A stretch of DNA of 34,975 nt from Chthoniobacter flavus (GCA_945860355.1 CAMARB010000018.1:1-34975), one strand, 5' to 3'; numbered from the stretch's first letter, positions 2,997 through 17,707 are shown. Notes: generated by a model from the sequence alone, not told the origin. Numbers and translations: made by a program.

Positions 2997-3620
2997 TTAC
3001 CGGAAGGTGTGCTCGAGCTCGCCCACATCAAAGAGTGCCTTGGCGCGGTGGGACTGCGCCCTCAAACCCTCGATCAACTTTTCGATGGTCTCTTTGCGTT
3101 GCTCGATCGTCCCGCGAACGCTCAGTTCGTCGTTGAGTCCGCCGGTTGCCTTGTAGGCGGCAATCTCGGCGTGCAGCAGTTTGATCTGCTCCTTTTGTTG
3201 CTCGTAGAGGACCCCGTAATCCCGCAGGGCGGCTTCCGCCTGAGGCTGGCGCTCGGCGAGGAACTTGAGGTTCTTCGCATACATTTCCGCCTGGCGCTGA
3301 TGAATGGCTGCTTTGTCCGCGGCGCCCTCGGCCCGGAGCCGCGAGCCGGTTGTTTCGGCGTCGTCCCTCAACCGCTCCAAGCCGCTCCGCAGCGTTTTAA
3401 TGCGCACGAGCTTCTCCTTGTAGTCGGCGTATTGCTCCTGGGAGAGCTTGAGCGCCACCTCCCCCTCGCCTGCCGCCTTCACGAGCCGGTCCTCTGATTT
3501 CTCCTTCAAGACCTCCAAGGCTTTCTGCGCCTTTTCGGAGCAGCCTAAAACAGCACAGAGGAGAAGGATCCCCGCTCCGTGCACAAACATTCGCGGATAA
3601 AGAAACTGGGCTTTGTTCAT
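2997..3620 (-). CDS. Coiled-coil lipoprotein
   Basis: 207 residues. It has an N-terminal signal with lipobox LLCAVLGC, so the mature protein should begin at Cys27 and be lipid-anchored. Almost all of the rest is predicted helical coiled coil (about 30-195), rich in Glu, Lys, Arg, Ala and Leu with very few aromatic residues. No enzymatic motif is seen. It heads the minus-strand group; the next gene, also a coiled-coil lipoprotein, begins 11 bases downstream. An alternative start is the ATG at residue 11. No strong ribosome binding site is visible upstream of 3620. Confidence 0.75.
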   Translation of the reverse strand: MNKAQFLYPRMFVHGAGILLLCAVLGCSEKAQKALEVLKEKSEDRLVKAAGEGEVALKLSQEQYADYKEKLVRIKTLRSGLERLRDDAETTGSRLRAEGAADKAAIHQRQAEMYAKNLKFLAERQPQAEAALRDYGVLYEQQKEQIKLLHAEIAAYKATGGLNDELSVRGTIEQRKETIEKLIEGLRAQSHRAKALFDVGELEHTFR

Positions 3621-4001
3621 ATTGAAATAAGGGGCGTGGTGACTACCGGTTTGCGCCGGAAGGACCGGCGCAACGCCGGGCCGCTCTCTCCTGAGCGCGA
3701 GGGCGCTCGGTGAGTGCGGAGACTTCGAGGGACGGAAGGAATGTCAGGGGGCGCCGGCGGCTTTGGGCGGCGCGGACCGCTGATGGAAGGGCGAGTTTCA
3801 TTTCGGGACCGATCTTGATCCAGGGGGGCGGACATCCGTGGGGGGAGTGTGCGGAATCCGCAAAAAAAACACGCCAAGGCGCTGGCGGCGGCTTGGAGGA
3901 TCGAATCGCCCGGCGAGGCGAAATGTTTTTGACTCGGTCTACGGATGTCCGGGTGCCCCCGGTAGGATGGGAGCCGAAACCTGATGAATCCCGAATCGCG
4001 C
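3621..4001. other. Intergenic region with a split inverted repeat
   Basis: No gene is supported here, although open frames run through it on both strands. The 11-base sequence CGGACATCCGT at 3829-3839 is repeated in inverse orientation as ACGGATGTCCG at 3941-3951, with G-runs flanking the first copy and a C-run following the second. The region should carry the promoter of the lipoprotein genes (minus) and of the small gene at 4002 (plus), but no convincing -35/-10 pair was found. Confidence 0.35.
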
Positions 4002-4309
4002 ATGACCCCACAAAAGCCTTCTCAACCCTCCAGGCGGCCCCGGATCTGGATTCACCCCGGCAAAGGCTACCTAAAGATCTGCGACGACGCGGTGGGCGGT
4101 CGGAACATTGGAATCATCGATCCCGACGGCTGGATCAACGCCAAGTCGGGAACGAACTCACCGTCATCCAAAAGGAGGCCTCTTTTGTCCCGAGCCAGAC
4201 GGGAGCCACCCGGATCAACAGCGGCTCAGGCTACGGCGGCTGGGCCGATTGCGGGAGCGTCGAAGGCGCCAAGGACTGGCTGCGCCAACGTCAGGGCTCA
4301 CGCATCTAA
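4002..4309 (+). pseudogene. Frameshifted small gene related to the N-terminus of the GIY-YIG protein at 6805
   Basis: A coding signal starts at an ATG at 4002 (a second ATG lies at 3984) and runs in one frame to about 4145, giving RIWIHPGKGYLKI and GIIDPDGWINAK. It then continues convincingly in another frame (NELTVIQKEASFV, then GSVEGAKDWLRQR) to TAG/TAA-type termination at 4307-4309. One base lost, or two gained, near 4140-4150 would join them into a protein of about 100 residues. The pieces line up with residues 14-112 of the protein at 6805-7791: K.Y[LI]KI, then GII, then SV..A.D[WY]L. Function is unknown. It could be an assembly error rather than a dead gene. Confidence 0.45.
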
Positions 4310-4625
4310 AATTGAGCTTCGCGGAGGAAAAGTTCTCAGAGCGCGTGGCAAAGCGGAGGCATTGTTCCCGGAGGGAACAGAGAGAGTAGCCGGGGGTGGA
4401 GCGCAGCGACACCCCCGGAACGCGGTCCAAAAAACAGCCCACCCCGCAGAGGGGTGGCAGAGGATTTGTTCCCCGGGTGGTCTCTGGCACTCCCTGCCGG
4501 GGTGCGGTCCCTGGGGGGCGGCCTTCCGGCGGTGTCGCTTCGCTCAACCGTCGGCTACTTTCCGGGATGCCTCCGGCATCGGATCAAGCCCCGCGGCGGG
4601 TTCCTCGCGCTTTTTTAGATGCGTG
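4310..4625. repeat. Repeat element with long inverted repeat
   Basis: A 34-base arm at 4385-4418 (beginning AGTAGCCGGGGGTGGAGCG) is matched by its inverse at 4526-4559 with five differences by eye. Between the arms lie GC-rich shorter palindromic pieces. Translated frames in the region are low-complexity Arg/Pro/Gly and are not credible genes. The layout fits a dispersed non-autonomous element downstream of the frameshifted gene, ending about 110 bases before the DUF2779 gene. Confidence 0.5.
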
Positions 4626-4733
4626 AGCCATGGGCACCAACGCTTTGACGTGGTTGACCTCGCAGGGGGGCGCATCGCTCCCGTCCGACTCCGCTTTTAA
4701 CCCGGCACCCAAGACCCCGTCACAGCCTCACCA

Positions 4734-6665
4734 ATGAAGCCTCTCACAAAATCGCAGTTCAAACTGGGCCTCAACTGCATCCAGAAGCTGCGGCATTACC
4801 GCGCCGGGCTGCCGTCCGCGTTTGCCGAAAACGATCTGATGCGCTTGCTCTCGGAGGGCGGCGCGGCCGTCGAGGCGCTCCAACGCGCCATCGAGCCGCC
4901 GGACTGGGTCGGGGCGGCCGGCGGCGCCTCCGTGGTCGAAGCGTCATTCCAACAGATCCGCCTCGCAGCGGCCCAGCCTAGGCCCGGCGGGAGCCGCCTC
5001 TCCGAGGTGACCCTCGCACACGGGGATTTTCTCGCCCGGATCGATCTGTTGCGCGTGTTTCCGGATCGGATCGAGCTCGTCGAGATCAAGTCCAAGTCAT
5101 GGAAGGGATCGGTCTCCAGTGGGCGCCTTGAGGGGATTGTCCACGAGGATGGGAAAAAAGTGTGTGCCGCTTGGGCGCCGTATCTTCAGGACCTCGCATT
5201 TCAGCATGAGCTGCTGCGGCGCTGGCTGACCCAACACGCGGCGGAATTAGGGCTCCCGAGCGAGATCCCCGTCGTGCCCAAGCTCATTCTCGTGAATGCG
5301 GAGGGCGTGGCCACGGCGGCGGATTGCCTCGGCAATTTTCGCACCCGTTATGAGGAGTTCCGAGGCGGCGTTCGCGCCCGCGTTGATTACGATGGGGCGG
5401 GTGTGAGTTGCACCGAGTTGCTTTTGGAGGTGGACGCGTCGGAGCCAGTCCGGTTGATGGCCGTAAACGCGCAAGCGAAGGAGAAGAAATTCGCGGGCCT
5501 GGGGGTTGCCGAATGTATGGAGCGTATGCTGGCCATGGTTCGCGACGATGATTGGCCGGATGCCATGGAGAGCCTGGGCGGCCGCTGCAAGCGGTGTGAA
5601 TACCGCGTGGCGGGCCCGGCTGGCTCCGGGCTGAGCCGCTGCTGGGAGGGCGACGTGGACGCGATTCCGCATCACATCCTCAAACTCGCGCGACTCCGCG
5701 ATGATCAGGTCGTTCACGCCATCGGTTCGGGCGCGCCGAGGGACGCCAAAATCACACACCTGCGTGAGGACCAATTGATTGCCTCGCAGAAGCCGCAATG
5801 GCGCTGTGTGAACAGCGGCGCACACGAGGTGCATCCCGAGTTTCTCCGCGATCGGATAAGAATTCTGAAAGCCCCGGACGATGGCCCTGTGTATTTCTTG
5901 GACTTCGAGACCGCGCGTTATCCCGTGCCCTACCGCGCGGGAGGGCGCGCCAATGAACTCATCCCGTTTCAGTTTGAGGGGCATTCTCTTCCCAGTCGGG
6001 ACGCGGCGCTGACGGACCGGGTGCGGTTGGAGGGTTTTCTCGATCTGGAAAGCTTGGATCCGCGCCGCGCATTCGTGCGCGCATTGAGCGCGCAGTTCGG
6101 CAGCCACGGCTCGATTTACCATTGGAGTCATTTCGAGCAGGACGTGCTCGAGAAGATTGCGCTCTCGCTGAAGGCGGACCCAGCGCCCGAGCCCGGTGAC
6201 AACGGGTTGGTCTGGGAATGTGAACAGCTCAAGGACCGGTTGGTGGACCTCTGCGAGATCGCAAGTTTGAACCTGACTGTCCCGGAGACCCACGGCAGTT
6301 ATTCCATCAAACGCTTCCTGCCGGTGATCTGGAAGGACGCCACGCTGCGCAACGCGTTCGCGCCCGGGCAGGCCCCGGGCGATTCCAACCACTACGCGCA
6401 TCCCGAGGACCCCTATCAATCGCTTCCCGGACTCCCGCGCGATTTTCTAGAGCGGTTGGGGCCGGAGGCCGTCGCCTCGCTGGCGGGGGAGGGCGGCGAG
6501 ACCGACGCGATCACCAACGGCGGGCTGGCCATGGTTTATTATCACTATGTCCGGCTCTTTGGCGGACACGATCAGCCGGAGATCCATGCGCAGTTCCGGC
6601 AATACTGCCAGTTGGATTCCGCCGCCATGGTGATGGCGTATGATTACATGCGGCGGGTGCGGTAG
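4734..6665 (+). CDS. DUF2779-family protein: Cas4/RecB-like nuclease fused to RNase H-like domain
   Basis: 643 residues from an ATG at 4734. The N-terminal half resembles PD-(D/E)xK nucleases of the RecB/Cas4 type: Asp104 in ARIDLL, then Glu117-x-Lys119 in VEIKS. Cys15 near the N-terminus plus Cys285, Cys288 and Cys303 give the one-plus-three cysteine layout known from Fe-S-containing Cas4 and AddB nucleases. The C-terminal half is DUF2779, an RNase H/DEDD-like fold: YFLDFET with Asp390 and Glu392, a later DRLVDLCEI block, and YCQLDSAAM near the end. The biological role of the family is not established; a DNA or RNA nuclease is inferred. The gene opens an accessory block with two GIY-YIG genes and a WYL regulator. 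The product is full length with no visible defect. Confidence 0.8.
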   Translation: MKPLTKSQFKLGLNCIQKLRHYRAGLPSAFAENDLMRLLSEGGAAVEALQRAIEPPDWVGAAGGASVVEASFQQIRLAAAQPRPGGSRLSEVTLAHGDFLARIDLLRVFPDRIELVEIKSKSWKGSVSSGRLEGIVHEDGKKVCAAWAPYLQDLAFQHELLRRWLTQHAAELGLPSEIPVVPKLILVNAEGVATAADCLGNFRTRYEEFRGGVRARVDYDGAGVSCTELLLEVDASEPVRLMAVNAQAKEKKFAGLGVAECMERMLAMVRDDDWPDAMESLGGRCKRCEYRVAGPAGSGLSRCWEGDVDAIPHHILKLARLRDDQVVHAIGSGAPRDAKITHLREDQLIASQKPQWRCVNSGAHEVHPEFLRDRIRILKAPDDGPVYFLDFETARYPVPYRAGGRANELIPFQFEGHSLPSRDAALTDRVRLEGFLDLESLDPRRAFVRALSAQFGSHGSIYHWSHFEQDVLEKIALSLKADPAPEPGDNGLVWECEQLKDRLVDLCEIASLNLTVPETHGSYSIKRFLPVIWKDATLRNAFAPGQAPGDSNHYAHPEDPYQSLPGLPRDFLERLGPEAVASLAGEGGETDAITNGGLAMVYYHYVRLFGGHDQPEIHAQFRQYCQLDSAAMVMAYDYMRRVR

Positions 6666-6804
6666 CGCGCCGGGGGGGGGGCTTGCCGGGGGAAACGTCT
6701 CTCTCGCCGCCCTTGCTGGGCCTGTCGCGGAACCGGCGGATTAGGGGTTTGCCAACTCCGGAGCAGGGGGCTATCCAGCGCTCTGTAAAAGAGAAAGAGA
6801 CACA

Positions 6805-7791
6805 ATGACAAATCACTCTGTTCAGGGAGCTAGCAACTCGGGGAGAACGATCTACCTCACTACAAGGAAGAGCTACATCAAGATCACTGAGCAATGTGGT
6901 GACCGCGAAAACAATGGGATCATCACGAATAAAACGTCCGTGTGGCTTTCTCTGAAGGAAAGCGAAGAGTCTGCGAGCTACCTGATCGGGGAGATCGCGA
7001 GCCTAGGCGGCGATTTCACGGGGCACCCGAGTTATCGAGCTTCCACCAATGGTCAAGCCATTGACGAGACAGGAGTCCATTACGCCGGCGGAGTGCAATT
7101 TTTGAGCGTTGGTGATGCGATCGATTACCTGGCTCAATACTTCAATGTGGTGTGGTGTGGCGGTGCCTCGGTGCCCACGGGTGCCCCCGCGGGCAAGCGG
7201 AAGCAAAACACCGGCTCTGCGTTAAGCCCATGCAACTGGCCCAAGACACTTTCCGACGCCAGTGATTTGTTCAGGAACCACGCTTCAGGAGCCTCCCACG
7301 CCCCCGACCCGGCTTCATTCAACGATTTCTACGAGAAGTTGCGTTCTGTTTTTAAGCAACGGGGGCTGCTTGCCGAGATTCGGGGCGCTGATGCACACGT
7401 AGGGAAAAATTGGCTGAATCATCCCGGCGTTTATATCGTCAGAGCCTCCGAGAATCCGACCCCCGACGGATTTTACTCCTCGATATTGTACGTCGGAATG
7501 ACGGGGAAGTTATCCAGGAGGAGCATTTCGATGCCGGGCCGCCTGAGTTTGAGGCCGCAGCGCTTGGACCCGTATCGTTTTTCGGCTGCAGGCTTCTCCT
7601 ACGGCTACAACCGGAGCACCGAGGAATACGGCACCCATATTCCAGCCGCGCAGTTTGAAGTGGATTGTTTCCTTTTTGACGCGACCGCCGCAGCGGCGCC
7701 CGCCTTCTTGGAGGCTCTGATTTTGCAGGCCTACGCGTTGTGCGCCACAGATCATTCCCTGCGGCTTCCGCCAGCGAACAACGCATTCTAA
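6805..7791 (+). CDS. GIY-YIG nuclease-like protein with novel N-terminal domain
   Basis: 328 residues from an ATG at 6805. The C-terminal part has the GIY-YIG signature: G208-V-Y210 in HPGVYIV, Y229-V-G231 in ILYVGMTG, Arg238/239, and a candidate metal-binding Glu303 in FLEALILQAY. This fold cuts DNA with one metal ion. The N-terminal 110 residues (IYLTTRKSYIKI, GIIT, FLSVGDAIDYL) form a separate unit that recurs in the frameshifted gene at 4002-4309; its function is unknown. Residues 120-170 look like a linker. It lies 139 bases after the DUF2779 gene on the same strand, so cotranscription is possible. Its stop overlaps that of the convergent GIY-YIG gene by 4 bases. Confidence 0.65.
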   Translation: MTNHSVQGASNSGRTIYLTTRKSYIKITEQCGDRENNGIITNKTSVWLSLKESEESASYLIGEIASLGGDFTGHPSYRASTNGQAIDETGVHYAGGVQFLSVGDAIDYLAQYFNVVWCGGASVPTGAPAGKRKQNTGSALSPCNWPKTLSDASDLFRNHASGASHAPDPASFNDFYEKLRSVFKQRGLLAEIRGADAHVGKNWLNHPGVYIVRASENPTPDGFYSSILYVGMTGKLSRRSISMPGRLSLRPQRLDPYRFSAAGFSYGYNRSTEEYGTHIPAAQFEVDCFLFDATAAAAPAFLEALILQAYALCATDHSLRLPPANNAF

Positions 7792-8276
7792 GCGTTTCCA
7801 CCGCTCGCCCCCTTCAAGCGAGCTGATTGGGCGGGCTGAAGTGCGAACGATTGCACCTGGTTGTTCCAAGTCGGCCGGTACTCGCGGATGAGACTTTGTT
7901 CGATGGCCTCGATGAGATTGAGATCGAGGCCTTCGTGGCTCGCGTCGAGTCCGGTTGTTTTGGCATAAACCGTGACCTTCCGGCCGGCCTTCAGATCGCT
8001 GAGAATCCCGTCGCGCACATCGGTCATGACGCCGTTTTTGTGGTAGGTCAGCGGACGGATGTAGCCCTGCACGCTCTTCCCCACATAGCGGCAGATGTCG
8101 TCCGCGAAGATGACGTACACCAGCGGGCGCCGCTCGGTGATTTTGACAGGCGTTTCGACAAAGACGCTGTCGTCGGATGCGAGTTCGTAGGAGCCGATGA
8201 ACACAAAGCCGTGTTCTCTGCGAAACGTGTCGATGAGAGGGGTGGGTTCGGTGCGGGTGGGTGCGGTGCGGGTCAT
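7788..8276 (-). CDS. Small GIY-YIG domain protein
   Basis: 162 residues. A compact GIY-YIG domain: L52-V-Y54 in PLVYVIF, Y64-V-G66 in CRYVGKS, Arg74 in GYIRPL, and Glu127 in IEQSLIREYRPTWNN, which matches the usual E....I....P..N ending of this superfamily. No DNA-binding domain is fused to it. It may act as a nuclease or depend on a partner. It converges on the larger GIY-YIG gene and shares 4 bases at the 3' ends. Upstream, 8277-8650 separates it from the WYL regulator gene on the same strand. The first 14 residues repeat a TRTxPT pattern, and the start could lie slightly further downstream. Confidence 0.7.
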   Translation of the reverse strand: MTRTAPTRTEPTPLIDTFRREHGFVFIGSYELASDDSVFVETPVKITERRPLVYVIFADDICRYVGKSVQGYIRPLTYHKNGVMTDVRDGILSDLKAGRKVTVYAKTTGLDASHEGLDLNLIEAIEQSLIREYRPTWNNQVQSFALQPAQSARLKGASGGNA

Positions 8277-8650
8277 GGCGGGACTTTACAAGAGCCACTC
8301 GGACATCGGTGGGGTGTGTCTCAAAAAAAGTTCAGCGCGTTGTTTGAGCTCGCGCTTTTGCGGCTGAACTCCGGGCCGGATCACCGCGCCTGCCCAGAGG
8401 GCGGCCGTCGTGAGACGCCGGATCCGTCCACAGGCGCCCCGTCGGGCCCCGCTGATTGCAGGAAGCTGGAGCCCTCCCGGCCCGCTGCGCGGCGCGGTGG
8501 CTGGTATCAACCCGAAAACGGAAGCCCCAGCCGAACGGCAGCGCACGCGAAACCACAATGCCTTCGGGTTCCGCAATTTCCAAAAATCCCTCCGCGCTCC
8601 CCGCGTCTCCGCGTGGGAAATTTCCGTCTCTGAAACTTCGGAGTTCGGGG
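8277..8650. repeat. Intergenic region with CTCCGCG-type repeat
   Basis: No credible gene. The part nearest the regulator (about 8565-8645) is a copy of a dispersed repeat with the core CTCCCCGCGTCTCCGCGTG. Similar copies lie at about 10045-10115, 24475-24520 (inverse) and 24885-24945. The preceding 60 bases (around 8513-8570) also resemble those before the copy at 10045. The rest, 8283-8500, is GC-rich; a minus-strand open frame passes through it but has no recognisable content. Confidence 0.5.
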
Positions 8651-9721
8651 TCACCCGTTGCGTTTGGCCATTTTGCGGCCTTCCGCGGCGACGGCCAACC
8701 GCAGCTCCCGGGGACTCAGGACTTCGCAGTCGGCGCCGAACCCCAAGATCCAGCGGGTGACATCGTTGAGGTCACTCAGCTCGAAGCGCACCTGCACTTC
8801 GCCGTGGGGCAGGGGCGTGATTTTCTGGGTCGGATGCCAGTTGCGTTCGATGACGTGGTGCGCGCCTTCCGCGGTGATCCGGAGTTCCACCGCGATTTGT
8901 CCCTGGCCTGTCCACACCCCGAACGACGTCCCGAGATGGGAGGTGGCGTCAAATTGCGCCGGTCGTTCGATGGGGGTTTGCGTGACCACGGGATTGCGGA
9001 ACCGGGCAAGGATATAGGTGCGCACATTGTCTTTCTCGAGGTCGCGCGCGACCAGGACCCAGCGCGATGCGACGCACGCCAAATGGTAAGGCGCGAGCCT
9101 CCGAAGTTGGTGGTCTGGCTGGCCCTTCGCCTGATACTCCACCCGCAGCTCGCAGCAGTTGATCAGGGTGTCCATGACGGCGCGGAACACCTCGGGATCC
9201 GCGATCCCCGCCCCGGGCGTGCGCACCGAGAGGTAATCGGACATGTTTCCCTCAAGACTGAGTCCGTTTTCTTTGAGGAACCCGTCGAAGAGCTTGTCGT
9301 AGGCGCTAGCGAGGTGTTCGCCGAACGCAACGCCTTTGAACACCGCAAGCGACTGACGCGCCACGGTCAGAGCGATCCGCTCGTCCCGGGAAAGGTTCGG
9401 GCCGACAGGGAAAACGACGCCGAGCTTCGTGTAAATGTAGGTGCCGGTGGGTCGGTCGTATTCAACCGGGAGCTCGAGTCTGTCCTTCATGTATCGCAGA
9501 TCCCGGTGAATGGTTTTGTCCGAGCATTCGAATATTTTGGAAAGACTTGCGCAGTTGATTCGCTGGTGGTTGCCACGGTTTCCCCGGTTGAGCTGTTCGT
9601 GGATTTGCAGCATCCGCCAGAGGGCCGGTTTGTAGGATTTCGCGGCGGCCGTTTGCTTGAGGGGTGTTTTGACAGGGGCGGGTTTGCGGCGGGATGTGGG
9701 TTTACGACGGGATGTGGGCAT
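8651..9721 (-). CDS. WYL-domain transcriptional regulator
   Basis: 356 residues. After a basic, repetitive leader (TSRRKP twice) there is a DeoR-like winged helix (about 30-100; SKIFECSDKTIHRDLRYMKD is the recognition part). A helical linker (RDERIALTVARQSLAVF) follows, then a WYL domain (LRRLAPYHL, RWVLVARDL) and a C-terminal WCX-like extension (LGFGADCEVLSPRELR). WYL regulators usually sense nucleotide-type ligands, and several control phage-defence loci (for example CapW and BrxR). Here it sits beside nuclease genes, so it may regulate that block; this is inferred from position only. The start is the ATG at 9721. Confidence 0.85.
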   Translation of the reverse strand: MPTSRRKPTSRRKPAPVKTPLKQTAAAKSYKPALWRMLQIHEQLNRGNRGNHQRINCASLSKIFECSDKTIHRDLRYMKDRLELPVEYDRPTGTYIYTKLGVVFPVGPNLSRDERIALTVARQSLAVFKGVAFGEHLASAYDKLFDGFLKENGLSLEGNMSDYLSVRTPGAGIADPEVFRAVMDTLINCCELRVEYQAKGQPDHQLRRLAPYHLACVASRWVLVARDLEKDNVRTYILARFRNPVVTQTPIERPAQFDATSHLGTSFGVWTGQGQIAVELRITAEGAHHVIERNWHPTQKITPLPHGEVQVRFELSDLNDVTRWILGFGADCEVLSPRELRLAVAAEGRKMAKRNG

Positions 9722-10149
9722 GGGAATGGGCGATTTCCCCGCACACTAGGACATTTGAATGTCCGTGTTAAGGCGAATCGTCCGCCGAGCGGTTGTCCTC
9801 TGAATGCCCCGGGGGGAATCCAGCCCCGTCAGCGGCGCGAAGGGAGCACAGGCTTCCAGCCTGTGACCTGTGACAATCACAGCCAGGATGGCTGTGCTCC
9901 TTTGAGGGGGGCGAAGGGGGGAGGGGGGCGAAAGGGACGGACAAGTTGAGGCGCGCTCCCGGCCTTCAACACGTTTGAGCTCAAAAACGGAAGTTCCAGC
10001 GGAGCGACTGAAACGGCCAAAGCGCAACACCCTGGCATTCAGTGAGTTCTAAAAAGTTCTCCGCGTTCCCCGCGGCTCCGCGTGAAAATCATCTCTCCCT
10101 GAAACTCCGGAGTTCGGTTTGAGGCAACAGCGAGAGAGGCGCGCCGGGC
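9722..10149. repeat. Repeat-filled intergenic region, including a two-hairpin REP
   Basis: No gene. From 9839 to 9904 there are two short stems, CACAGGC TTCCA GCCTGTG and CACAGCC AGGAT GGCTGTG. A G-rich stretch follows (CTTTGAGG at 9900) and then a GGGACGGACAAG box at 9934. A closely similar two-hairpin unit occurs at 18136-18202. A CTCCGCG-type repeat follows at about 10045-10115. The order hairpins, G-rich stretch, GGGACxG box is shared with the sequence next to the IS66 end at 148-195, which lacks the hairpins. Confidence 0.65.
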
Positions 10150-10557
10150 TCAGTCAAACGGGTTGAGGACGTGAAGCCCGGACGTTTCGAAGTCCGACCG
10201 ATTGCGGGTGATGATCGTCAGGTCGTGGGCAAGAGCGGAGGCGGCGATCAGACTGTCTTTAACGGGCATTGAAAGCCCTTGAGCCTTGAGCCGGGCGAGC
10301 AGTGCGGCCCACACCGAGGCGGTGCGCGCGTCCCAATCGAGGACGCGGATCGTTTTTACGCCCGTCTTGAACCAGGCTTGGAGACGGGCGCGACGCGGTC
10401 CCGCAGGGAGAAGCAGAATGCCGTATTCAATCTCCCCTAACACCACCGGATTCACGCACAGAGCCGGCTCGTTTTGAACCAGCCACTCCGACACCCGCGG
10501 GTTGGGATCGGGACGCATGACTTCACTCAGGACGTTTGCGTCCACGACGAACCTCAT
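10150..10557 (-). CDS. vapC: VapC-type PIN-domain toxin (FitB-like)
   Basis: 135 residues from the ATG at 10557. PIN ribonucleases hold Mg2+ with conserved acidic residues; here these are Asp6 (VVDANVLSE), Glu42 (GEIEYG), Asp101 (MPVKDSLIAA) and Asp122 (NRSDF), so the site looks complete. The expected action is endonucleolytic cleavage of an RNA, often a tRNA, when released from the antitoxin. The start overlaps the antitoxin stop by four bases (ATGA), consistent with translational coupling. The 10623 start of the longer frame would add 22 residues read from the antitoxin gene and is rejected. Confidence 0.85.
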   Translation of the reverse strand: MRFVVDANVLSEVMRPDPNPRVSEWLVQNEPALCVNPVVLGEIEYGILLLPAGPRRARLQAWFKTGVKTIRVLDWDARTASVWAALLARLKAQGLSMPVKDSLIAASALAHDLTIITRNRSDFETSGLHVLNPFD

Positions 10558-10784
10558 AACGCGTTGGTGGATTCGGAGGGGATGTTTTGGAACCAGTCCG
10601 GCTCGGGACAGGACTGGAGCCATTGGACGAAGCCCTCATTTGGGGCCGGGGCGACCTTTTTGAGGAGGTAAACCCCCGCCTCAATCCGCTCCAACGAGAA
10701 CTGTTGGCCGGGCTGGATGCGGTCCTCCCTGCGGAATTCAGCGGGCAAAACGATCTGCCCCTTGGTGGAGACGACAGTGAGCAT
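10554..10784 (-). CDS. vapB: AbrB/MazE-fold antitoxin of the VapBC pair
   Basis: 76 residues. The N-terminal VVSTKGQIVLPAEFRRE is a standard swapped-hairpin AbrB DNA-binding motif, used for dimerisation and autorepression. The C-terminal part (NEGFVQWLQSCPEPDWFQ) is the likely toxin-binding tail. It precedes vapC with a 4-base overlap. A perfect TTGACA lies upstream on the minus strand at 10818-10813, about 30 bases before the start codon; the matching -10 is unclear. Confidence 0.85.
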   Translation of the reverse strand: MLTVVSTKGQIVLPAEFRREDRIQPGQQFSLERIEAGVYLLKKVAPAPNEGFVQWLQSCPEPDWFQNIPSESTNAL

Positions 10785-11007
10785 GGCGTAAGAGGTAACC
10801 TTCCGCCGGCCGTGTCAACCGTGCCCACCGAGAAAAGCCGCGGGGGGCGCCGCAGTCGGCGGGGTCGCGTTTTCTCGGGGGAGCGGGTTTGCCTGTCCCC
10901 TTCGGCTCCTCCCATCTTATCGGGGCAAACCGAACGACTGCGGGCACACACACAAAGGCCTTGAGGCGTGGGTTGCCGCTCACCCCATTTTCGTCCATCT
11001 TCACCCT
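10785..11007. other. Intergenic region between vapBC and the small coupled ORF
   Basis: No gene. It contains the TTGACA box of vapB (10813-10818, minus), an inverted pair CGAGAAAA (about 10829) and TTTTCTCG (about 10870) around a GC-rich core, and a GCCTGTCCCC box at 10891-10900 that belongs to the dispersed GGGACAG/CTGTCCC family. Confidence 0.4.
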
Positions 11008-11211
11008 GTGGCCGCTCCAAAACACTGTGAGATGTGGCGTAAGTCCCGCATCGCCGCTCGAATACTGAGGCGGAAACAAACTTCCCGCCCGCTCTCGGCG
11101 CGAGACATTCGATGGGCCAACGTGCTTGCCGACGATCCCGCGGTCACGAATCGGCTCATCGCTCAAGCAACCTCATGGCTGGAGGCGACCCATGCAACAA
11201 CTGCCCTTTGA
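11008..11211 (+). CDS. Small hypothetical protein upstream of the nucleotidyltransferase
   Basis: 67 residues from a GTG at 11008, or 59 from an ATG at 11032. It is basic and helical in look (RKSRIAARILRRKQ, then NVLADDPAVTNRLIAQATSWLEA). No family recognised. Its stop overlaps the start of the next gene by 20 bases, and the next gene's ribosome binding site (GGAGG, 11181-11185) lies inside it, so the two are likely coupled. By analogy with other nucleotidyltransferase toxin modules it could be a partner or antitoxin, but nothing in the sequence proves that. Confidence 0.45.
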   Translation: MAAPKHCEMWRKSRIAARILRRKQTSRPLSARDIRWANVLADDPAVTNRLIAQATSWLEATHATTAL

Positions 11212-11878
11212 TCGACCCTGGGAACCGGAGTTAAACTGGGACTGCAACGCGGGGCGGGTCGTCGATGCGCTGCTCAAAGAGCTGCTTTCCGAGGGGGGAG
11301 ATTGGTTGGTTAACATTTTCGGTTCCGCACCGTTGCAAATAGCCTACGCCAGCAACTTTTTGAGCGCCGATGTGGACGCTTCTGTCGCGTGGAACAAAGA
11401 GCCCGAGTTTGACCGCGCGATCAGCAGGGCCGGTTTAGCGAGAGGCGCATCCCCGGTGTATGTGCAGCACTGCAAGGAGGCCGCATTTCGCACGAGTCCA
11501 AAGTGGAAAGACCGCGCATGCGTTCACAGGCGCGACTCAGTGACGCTTCGATTCGCTCATCCCATCGACATTCTCATCGGGAAAATCCATCGGCTGGAAC
11601 CAAAAGACCTGAAGGCATTCGAGCTTGTTCGCGCAATCACCGGAGAACCCACGGAAACCGCCCTCCTCCAAGAGTTGAGGGACGCCCCTGATCTGTTCAG
11701 CCTCGCGTATATGCCTGCGGAGGGGGAAAGAGCGTTCTCCGAAAACGTCTCGATTCTATGGCCTCTTTTTTTTGGTCGAGAGATCGACGTTGAGCGGGAA
11801 ATCACCGCCCCCGCCCGCGCCATCCTAAAAAGCAACTACGACCAAGGCGCCGACTTTAAATCAGGCCTTCGCATGTGA
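11192..11878 (+). CDS. DUF6036-like nucleotidyltransferase-fold protein
   Basis: 228 residues from the ATG at 11192, preceded by GGAGG at a suitable distance; this decides the start over a longer frame from 11126. The fold signature is GS at 44-45 (IFGSAPLQIAYA), followed by Asp60-x-Asp62 (LSADVDASV) as possible metal ligands, and a later HPIDILIGKIHRLEPKDLKAF block typical of DUF6036 and AbiEii-like nucleotidyltransferases. Such proteins may add nucleotides to RNA or protein targets, often as toxins; the activity here is inferred. It is translationally linked to the small ORF at 11008-11211. Confidence 0.6.
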   Translation: MQQLPFDRPWEPELNWDCNAGRVVDALLKELLSEGGDWLVNIFGSAPLQIAYASNFLSADVDASVAWNKEPEFDRAISRAGLARGASPVYVQHCKEAAFRTSPKWKDRACVHRRDSVTLRFAHPIDILIGKIHRLEPKDLKAFELVRAITGEPTETALLQELRDAPDLFSLAYMPAEGERAFSENVSILWPLFFGREIDVEREITAPARAILKSNYDQGADFKSGLRM

Positions 11879-12108
11879 ACGGCTGTTTTCGCGGCCGGCG
11901 AATCTGCAGGGGAGAGACAAAGTGTGCGACTGGTAGCCACCCGTTTTCCTGCGCATTTTCCATAGAAGCCCTGTCCCCATCAGCCGCAAAAACGTCCCCG
12001 CCGCTCTCGCTTAATTTGCACCCTCTCTGGCCGAAGAATGGGGTCCACCTCAAAGTTCACTGATTCGAGGCGTGGGACAGTTGGTTGCCTCATGCTTGTG
12101 ATGAGCTG
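11879..12108. repeat. Intergenic region with a 70-base GGGACAG element
   Basis: Bases 11909-11978 form a 70-base unit that starts GGGGAGAG and ends CTGTCCCC, giving imperfect inverted ends. A second 70-base unit with matching internal sequence lies at 16173-16242 (GGGGACAG to CCGTCCCC). Both are preceded by GCGAATCTGCA. Another GGGACAG lies at about 12074. No gene is supported. Confidence 0.6.
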
Positions 12109-16655: not shown

Positions 16656-17707
16656 TCATTTCCTCGATGGCTTGGGTTTCTTCGGTTTCGGCAATTTCTT
16701 CAATTCCGAGGCCGCCTTCTCGAAATCCAGATCCACCGTGCGCGGCTGCGAATCGAGAAATGCCCGGTAGCGTTCGTATTCCAGCTCGGCTTTCATCTTT
16801 GCTTGCTCGGTGGAGATCTTCCCCGCGTGATCCAGCAGCTCGTGCTCGGAGAGCTTCAGGAACTCGTCCAGCTTCGCGATCCAATCCCGCATGGTCATGA
16901 CCTTGCGTTGCAATGCCCGCAGCTCGGCAAATTCGATGTAGGCGGTCACGATCCGGTTCAGCGTGTCGAGTTCCTCGCCATCGAGGTAGTTCTTGGCGAT
17001 GGACACATCCTCCTTGCGGATGATGCCGCCGGGCCGCGTGGTTTGCAGGCCCATGAAGGGCTTTCCCGCATCCACCCGCGCGTGGATGACTTCCGCCGCC
17101 GTCTGCCCGTGTGCTGCCCAAAATGCACCTTGTTTTGCACCGTGGCGAAGAACTGCTGCGACATTTCGGTGTTTGGCGTGTAGTCCACGCTCGTCGCGTA
17201 GATATCCAAGACTTTCTGGTAAAAGCGCCGCTCCGAGGAGCGGATGTCGCGGATGCGCTCCAGTTGCTCGTCGAAGTAGTCCTTCTGGCCCTTGCCTGGC
17301 GGATTCTTGAGCCGCTCGTCGTCCATGGTGAAACCCTTCACCAGATACTCGTTCAAGCGCCCGATGGCCCACTGCCGGAACTGTGTGCCCCGATGGCTGC
17401 GCACGCGGAAACCGACTGCGAGGATGGTATCCAGGTTGTAGTGCTCGATCTCCCGCGCCACTTCCCGTTTGCCCTCGGTTCGAACTATCCGGAATTTCCG
17501 GATAGTTGCCTCCCGTGCCAGTTCTCGCTCGTCGAAAATGTTCACCAGATGCTCGTTGATCGTCCGCACATCCTTCTCGAAAAGCTCGGCAATCAGTGCC
17601 TGCGTCAGCCACAGGGTGTCATGATCAAACCGGCATTGGATGCGGGTCCGGCCATCCTCCGTCTGGTAGAGGATAATTTCGGACTGGGGCAAAGGTTCGT
17701 CGCTCAT
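16656..17707 (-). pseudogene. rhuM: rhuM-family gene broken by a frameshift
   Basis: RhuM proteins are about 330-350 residues, associated with genomic islands and of unclear biochemistry. From the ATG at 17707 (AGGAG upstream) the first 195 residues match: EIILYQTEDGRTRIQ, LTQALIAELF, INEHLVNIF, FRVRSHRGTQFRQWA. The frame then leaves the family at a TTTTGGG run (17124-17118), and homology resumes in another frame (AAHGQTAAEVIHARVDAGKP, LSEHELLDHAGKIS) to the stop at 16656. Relatives usually read NKLHWA at this point, so an extra TT (or one missing base) fits. It may be a dead gene, a sequencing error, or programmed slippage. Repeats of the CCCTCTCC type flank it on both sides. Confidence 0.7.

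Follow-up and report, generated by a model that had tools for sequence, protein, structure and literature searches.

Positions 4734-9721 of the 34,975-nucleotide Chthoniobacter flavus contig analysed here (the window; contig 18 of the 276 in a genome bin that is 86.5% complete) carry, by ORF calls, a block of four genes coding for a 643-residue DUF2779 protein, two GIY-YIG proteins and a WYL-WCX regulator. The reading that we favour, with a probability of roughly one half, is that this block is an AAA-less variant of a recurring anti-foreign-DNA cassette, which comprises a WYL regulator, a tandem-AAA ATPase, a DUF2779 protein and at least one nuclease of the GIY-YIG or PD-(D/E)xK type. Established directly are which genes are present, that the catalytic residues are conserved, how DUF2779 folds (as a predicted model) and that the parts recur together; that the block is active in defence we infer.

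Organisation of the nuclease block

The features of the region are as follows.

3984-4309, + strand: short gene, apparently frameshifted and in two frames, with weak likeness to the N-terminal domain (NTD) of GIY328
4292-4632, no strand: MITE-like element of 341 bp with inverted ends of about 20 nt, GCTCACGCATCTAAAA (inverted repeats I1 and I5)
4734-6665, + strand: DUF2779 protein, 643 aa (PF11074, E 7.7e-16)
4734-5681, + strand: N-terminal half of the DUF2779 protein, predicted Cas4/RecB-like PD-(D/E)xK nuclease (conserved residues, Cas4 structural match)
5874-6665, + strand: C-terminal half of the DUF2779 protein, predicted RNase H-like DEDD 3'-5' exonuclease (PF11074, acidic residues, VIA-align)
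6805-7791, + strand: GIY328, 328 aa, with a GIY-YIG motif and without a Pfam match
7788-8276, - strand: GIY162, 162 aa, with an Eco29kI-like C-terminus (RE_Eco29kI, E 2.3e-4, below cutoff)
8651-9721, - strand: HTH-WYL-WCX transcriptional regulator of the AAA-linked clade (Pfam and tree)
10150-10623, - strand: VapC-like PIN toxin (PIN, E 5.6e-14)
10554-10784, - strand: AbrB/MazE-like antitoxin (lp_hng_hel_AbrB, E 4.3e-8)

The four genes form two convergent pairs rather than a single operon, using both strands and with gaps of 139 and 375 nt; the two GIY-YIG genes meet tail to tail with a 4-nt overlap. A first-pass annotation of this DNA had described a protein with Cas4/RecB-like and RNase H-like halves, two GIY-YIG genes meeting in this way, a WYL regulator, and flanking repeats and toxin-antitoxin genes, and all of these were borne out: the first by the PF11074 match, an AlphaFold model and VIA-align, the rest by the features listed above. 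It placed the block start at 4002, but 4002-4300 contains no clean ORF and looks like the frameshifted short gene.

That short gene scored 15-16.5 bits against an HMM of the GIY328 NTD (E 0.003-0.008, search size 8,395), while the best of 2,000 shuffles reached 5.5 bits; by sequence, a relationship is suggestive only. Its stop codon falls inside the end of the inserted MITE-like element, which sits between it and the DUF2779 gene. The end sequence of this element has 43 matches in its own genome with at most one mismatch, against 0 for a reversed control, and several of these are paired 329-342 nt apart; members of the family lie on contigs C68, C115, C12, C19 and C72 of this genome. The VapBC-like pair at 10150-10784 is probably independent of the nuclease block. 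An imperfect hairpin with 27-nt arms lies upstream of the WYL gene (9840-9903), and a further accessory-type gene, of the RhuM family (PF13310, E 1e-42), is found near the block at 16656-17612.

We found no CRISPR array-like repeats in 3000-12100, and no cas matches among seven proteins other than WYL/Cas3c cross-hits. A type II restriction-modification reading was dropped because none of the ten main proteins encoded in 1.2-13.3 kb matched a DNA methyltransferase. In PADLOC-DB 2.0.0 the DUF2779 protein and GIY328 had no match, GIY162 gave a weak type II enzyme match and the WYL match was generic.

The DUF2779 protein is predicted to join a Cas4-like nuclease to a DEDD exonuclease

The PF11074 match covers residues 387-524 and scores 58.9 bits against a cutoff of 23.3. 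Alignment of 61 long-form DUF2779 homologues shows that, in the N-terminal half, E91, D104, E117-x-K119 and the cysteines C15, C285, C288 and C303 are invariant or at least 90% conserved, which supplies both the PD-(D/E)xK residues and the four cysteines for an Fe-S cluster that characterise Cas4/RecB-like nucleases. In the C-terminal half, D390, E392, D505 and D628 are invariant, giving the D, E, D, D set of a DEDD 3'-5' exonuclease in an RNase H-like fold. The AlphaFold model has a mean pLDDT of 86.3 and a pTM of 0.89. Foldseek alone returned no PDB match to it with E <= 0.001; with VIA-align, residues 381-643 matched DEDD exonuclease domains with Z up to 15.4 (about 11-12 for TREX1, ExoI and Pol III epsilon) and residues 1-316 matched Cas4 (7mi4_A) with Z 11.2. 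We conclude that the protein is, as modelled, a Cas4-like domain followed by a DEDD exonuclease, with catalytic residues intact.

This architecture agrees with the 2014 classification of PF11074, which makes it family F.17 of the RNase H-like superfamily, grouped with presumed 3'-5' exonucleases, and already records the joining of a DUF83-like PD-(D/E)xK domain to the RNase H-like domain (PMC3985635). The window protein has the same C-terminal domain and the same combination; what is new here is the neighbourhood tie to WYL, GIY-YIG and AAA genes. No defence role for DUF2779 appeared in the literature searched, as far as its accessible text extends.

The two GIY-YIG proteins

GIY328 had no Pfam, PHROG, PADLOC or NCBIfam match. 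Its NTD spans residues 15-118 (6847-7158) and its C-terminal nuclease 7324-7788, where the GVY...YVG motif (G208-Y210...Y229-G231) is accompanied by R253, E303 and N325; the protein therefore has the GIY and YIG motifs and the catalytic R, E and N by which such nucleases are recognised. These residues are kept in a full-length relative (L081) and are also visible in a C-terminal relative in genome G492. Structure prediction of GIY328 alone was unusable (pLDDT 32). The motif residues are present in GIY162 as well. This protein scored 21.5 bits against RE_Eco29kI, short of the cutoff of 30.8 and so of an Eco29kI-type assignment, and matched the phage endonuclease family phrog_1111 with E 2.4e-9. 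Relatives 55% identical to it occur in three genomes of the same family, and relatives of it have other settings, in a conjugative element and in IS66 surroundings. Viral contigs contained no relative of either protein, and plasmids none of GIY328.

The NTD also occurs, in two genomes, in proteins of 258-259 aa with another C-terminus, encoded just upstream of an FtsH-like gene (L003, L005/L082). T4SS-like genes of one family adjoin DUF2779 (L070/L098) and a GIY162 relative (L074) in different genomes, which suggests that relatives of both may travel as conjugative-element cargo. A link between GIY162 and WYL genes through genomes G054 and G100 was dropped, as the WYL proteins there are only distant matches (25-29%), encoded within or next to conjugative-element or other accessory regions.

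Among known enzymes, Eco29kI and CMoRE share with these proteins the GIY-YIG motif with R, E and N. CMoRE, a GIY-YIG domain joined to a sensing domain, restricts modified phage DNA alone (PMC12923530); its sensor is C-terminal, whereas the GIY328 NTD is N-terminal and has no Pfam match. A further difference is that the genes of the block gave no methyltransferase match.

The WYL regulator belongs to a clade linked to a tandem-AAA ATPase

The WYL protein matched WCX (E 2.3e-20) and WYL (E 1.8e-11) above cutoff and HTH_11 below it, and its PDB matches include BrxR, CapW and PafBC. It has the HTH, WYL and WCX domains of BrxR and CapW, regulators that control defence loci (PMC9122601, PMC9122588), and shares with them a place beside nuclease genes in defence islands. 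It differs in that its clade, a separate one from Verrucomicrobiota, is linked to a tandem-AAA ATPase, and in having neither BREX nor CBASS alongside. In a maximum-likelihood tree it falls in a 100/100 clade with exactly three other WYL proteins, L093, L183 and L185 (those of the Opitutus MAG locus L093 and of genomes G264 and G381). All three are from Verrucomicrobiota, and each has a gene for the same tandem-AAA ATPase adjacent or at most 3 kb away. The window protein is separate in the tree from the order-wide WYL lineage, in which the same genome has a second WYL copy. Across the class (384 genomes), close relatives at E 1e-70 were found only in G264; G381 just misses this threshold.

In both G264 and G381 the tandem-AAA ATPase (about 715 aa; 51% identity between the two) is encoded immediately after the WYL gene. 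The next genes in G381 encode two proteins: one of 153 aa, a GIY-YIG protein resembling the C-terminus of GIY328, and one of 377 aa that ends in the GIY328 NTD. In L093, a WYL gene (product 56% identical to the window's), an AAA gene, a GIY-YIG-motif gene and DUF2779 lie within 9 kb, the full content being an OGG-like glycosylase, WYL, radical-SAM, AAA, GIY-YIG-motif and DUF2779 proteins together with proteins of 716 and 376 aa. The first part of the 376-aa protein is PD-(D/E)xK-like by eye and its end resembles the GIY328 NTD by alignment; an NTD HMM built without the L093 sequence matched it with only E 0.023, and it had no Pfam or PADLOC match. It is likely to be a PD-(D/E)xK nuclease with an NTD-like end. 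The OGG-like glycosylase gene (PF21790) is divergent from the WYL gene both in L093 (373-1002) and in L185 (14363-15010), with 47% identity.

Sets of AAA, WYL and short-form DUF2779 genes are found in G430 and on Rhodoferax, Diaphorobacter and Sphingobium plasmids, and a Planktothrix plasmid has the same AAA family with DUF2779 and no WYL gene seen. The sets on proteobacterial plasmids have the same tandem-AAA family as the Verrucomicrobiota loci, together with WYL and DUF2779 genes; they differ in the short DUF2779 (about 500 aa), in another WYL clade and, in Rhodoferax, in PDC-M27A/B/C following the tandem-AAA set, so that the Rhodoferax set may belong to the PDC-M27 candidate system. On the plasmids and in G430, the loci in which the tandem-AAA gene adjoins short-form DUF2779 are L086, L087, L088, L091 and L193, with WYL in all but L091. 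In PADLOC-DB the AAA protein matches generic AAA models only, such as IetA.

The window has a WYL gene of the AAA-linked clade with DUF2779 and an NTD/GIY-YIG nuclease, either of which, beside such a WYL gene, would be one mark of the cassette; the other hallmark, a tandem-AAA ATPase gene in the locus, is lacking. Since no homologue was found in the window by tblastn, nor in the 86.5%-complete genome at E 1e-40, the window copy would be a variant that does without the AAA protein or else one in decay.

Do the genes belong together?

One rival account is that the four genes (DUF2779, WYL and two stray GIY-YIG genes) gathered separately in an accessory hot spot, along with the MITE-like element and the toxin-antitoxin pair, and do no joint work. 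Among up to 147 genomes of the same order, relatives of DUF2779 occur in 8, of GIY328 in 5 and of GIY162 in 4, while WYL genes are common (89/147). No other of the 147 genomes has the three rare genes together, and the four genes in this exact order were seen nowhere else; taken alone, the block therefore looks accidental. The genes use both strands, they share the stretch with a mobile element, a frameshifted gene and the toxin-antitoxin pair, and the relatives of GIY162 have other neighbours. The first-pass annotation had named homologues in unrelated contexts with no co-occurrence as the outcome that would tell against a cassette. This describes the exact rare genes, which are never together elsewhere in the 147 genomes, but not the gene types, which do co-occur: a WYL or GIY-YIG gene stands beside DUF2779 in other loci, all are present in the one Opitutus locus, and a WYL gene meets parts of GIY328 in G381. 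These meetings in L093 and G381, the position of the window WYL in the AAA-linked clade outside the order-wide lineage, and a strong local enrichment of WYL genes around DUF2779 count against a chance gathering, which we consider unlikely.

The enrichment was measured as follows. Scanning 85,000 genomes with a long-form DUF2779 profile, we obtained 80 loci, spread over many phyla. In 50 of these genomes, with 90 WYL genes in 205 Mb, the DUF2779 loci make up 0.84 Mb (0.41%), and 12 WYL genes, assigned to these loci by hand from coordinates, were seen near long-form DUF2779 against 0.37 expected, an enrichment of about 33 times. A WYL gene lay within reach of DUF2779 at no more than 19 of the 82 distinct loci; 8 of 20 such WYL genes were the immediate neighbour, and some gaps are as short as -4, 9, 9, 10 and 18 nt. 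These near-zero intergenic distances argue for coupling of WYL and DUF2779 genes. In a tally of Pfam neighbours, WYL/WCX rank first upstream of DUF2779 and LEM-3 GIY-YIG is among the commonest downstream; PDDEXK_4, BrxL, Z1, HipA and CBASS-type families are also frequent.

A GIY-YIG gene lies at most two genes from DUF2779 in 9 of the 80 loci (eight with Pfam support, four of these below the curated cutoff, and L093 by motif only), and the family involved varies from locus to locus. Of the four LEM-3-type GIY-YIG genes in the 50 genomes, three are inside DUF2779 loci, in two independent places. These statistics use PF22945 alone, PF01541 being too broad (UvrC and others) and scoring divergent GIY-YIG partners weakly. 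Within DUF2779 loci WYL and AAA genes co-occur (6/7, P 0.0006), whereas co-occurrence of WYL with GIY-YIG is not significant (Fisher P 0.37), so that these two may accompany DUF2779 independently of each other. The WYL and GIY-YIG enrichment fits a specific link and the general pull of defence islands alike. As to the defence or mobile-element cassette first proposed, a putative role of this kind is well supported by the neighbourhood (BrxL, PDC-M27, HipA, AbiE-like, McrBC, Z1 and conjugative plasmids). The tandem-AAA ATPase that recurs with this WYL clade was not part of that proposal and is missing from the window.

In two IMG/VR contigs, L174 (1460-7974) and L176, DUF2779 lies directly downstream of SbcD-/SbcC-like genes; we dropped an SbcCD link as a general feature, these being two near-identical contigs only.

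A possible relic or repair module

The missing AAA gene, and the frameshifted short gene and MITE-like element directly upstream of DUF2779, would also fit a once-complete cassette that lost its AAA gene and has been decaying since the insertion, with no function left or with single-protein restriction by a GIY-YIG protein. We regard such a relic as rather improbable, as none of the four main ORFs is truncated and the catalytic residues are conserved. A DNA-repair or end-processing module, in which a damage-responsive WYL protein controls nucleases acting on damaged chromosomal DNA and defence is not the purpose, would account for the match of the window WYL to PafBC, which with SiwR is described as acting in the DNA-damage response (PMC10693628), for the OGG-like glycosylase gene flanking WYL in L093 and L185, and for the SbcCD-like genes adjoining DUF2779 in L174 and L176. 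The SbcCD-like genes are, however, limited to those two contigs and one AAA locus, and the patchy spread of DUF2779 (8/147 genomes), with copies carried by plasmids and conjugative elements and with BrxL, PDC-M27, AbiE-like and HipA genes as neighbours, is unlike that of housekeeping repair, so that we judge this account improbable indeed.

Proposed mechanism and implications

If the block is a variant of an anti-foreign-DNA cassette, the WYL regulator would hold the nuclease genes down and release them on binding a ligand, a nucleic acid or a nucleotide, that arises in infection or from DNA damage. The GIY-YIG proteins would then make the first cut in incoming DNA, one of them (GIY328) being steered to its target by an exchangeable NTD, and the DUF2779 protein would degrade what had been cut: its DEDD domain would work from 3' ends, while the Cas4-like Fe-S domain attacked the other strand. 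Where the cassette is complete, the AAA ATPase would serve to remodel or translocate the target.

WYL-controlled nuclease loci are already known (PMC9122601, PMC9122588); the link of DUF2779 to WYL, GIY-YIG and AAA genes is new. More tentatively, and with the odds somewhat against it, these loci might represent a distinct anti-foreign-DNA system that is not in PADLOC-DB 2.0.0, with a WYL, tandem-AAA and DUF2779 core and interchangeable front-end nucleases that share an undescribed NTD of about 100 residues on GIY-YIG or PD-(D/E)xK domains, the window variant working without the AAA motor. That the NTD turns up with different nucleases hints at a targeting module that can be swapped. Through WYL, GIY-YIG and tandem-AAA, DUF2779, a family of many phyla with no role assigned in the accessible text of the literature searched, gains a concrete and testable gene set.
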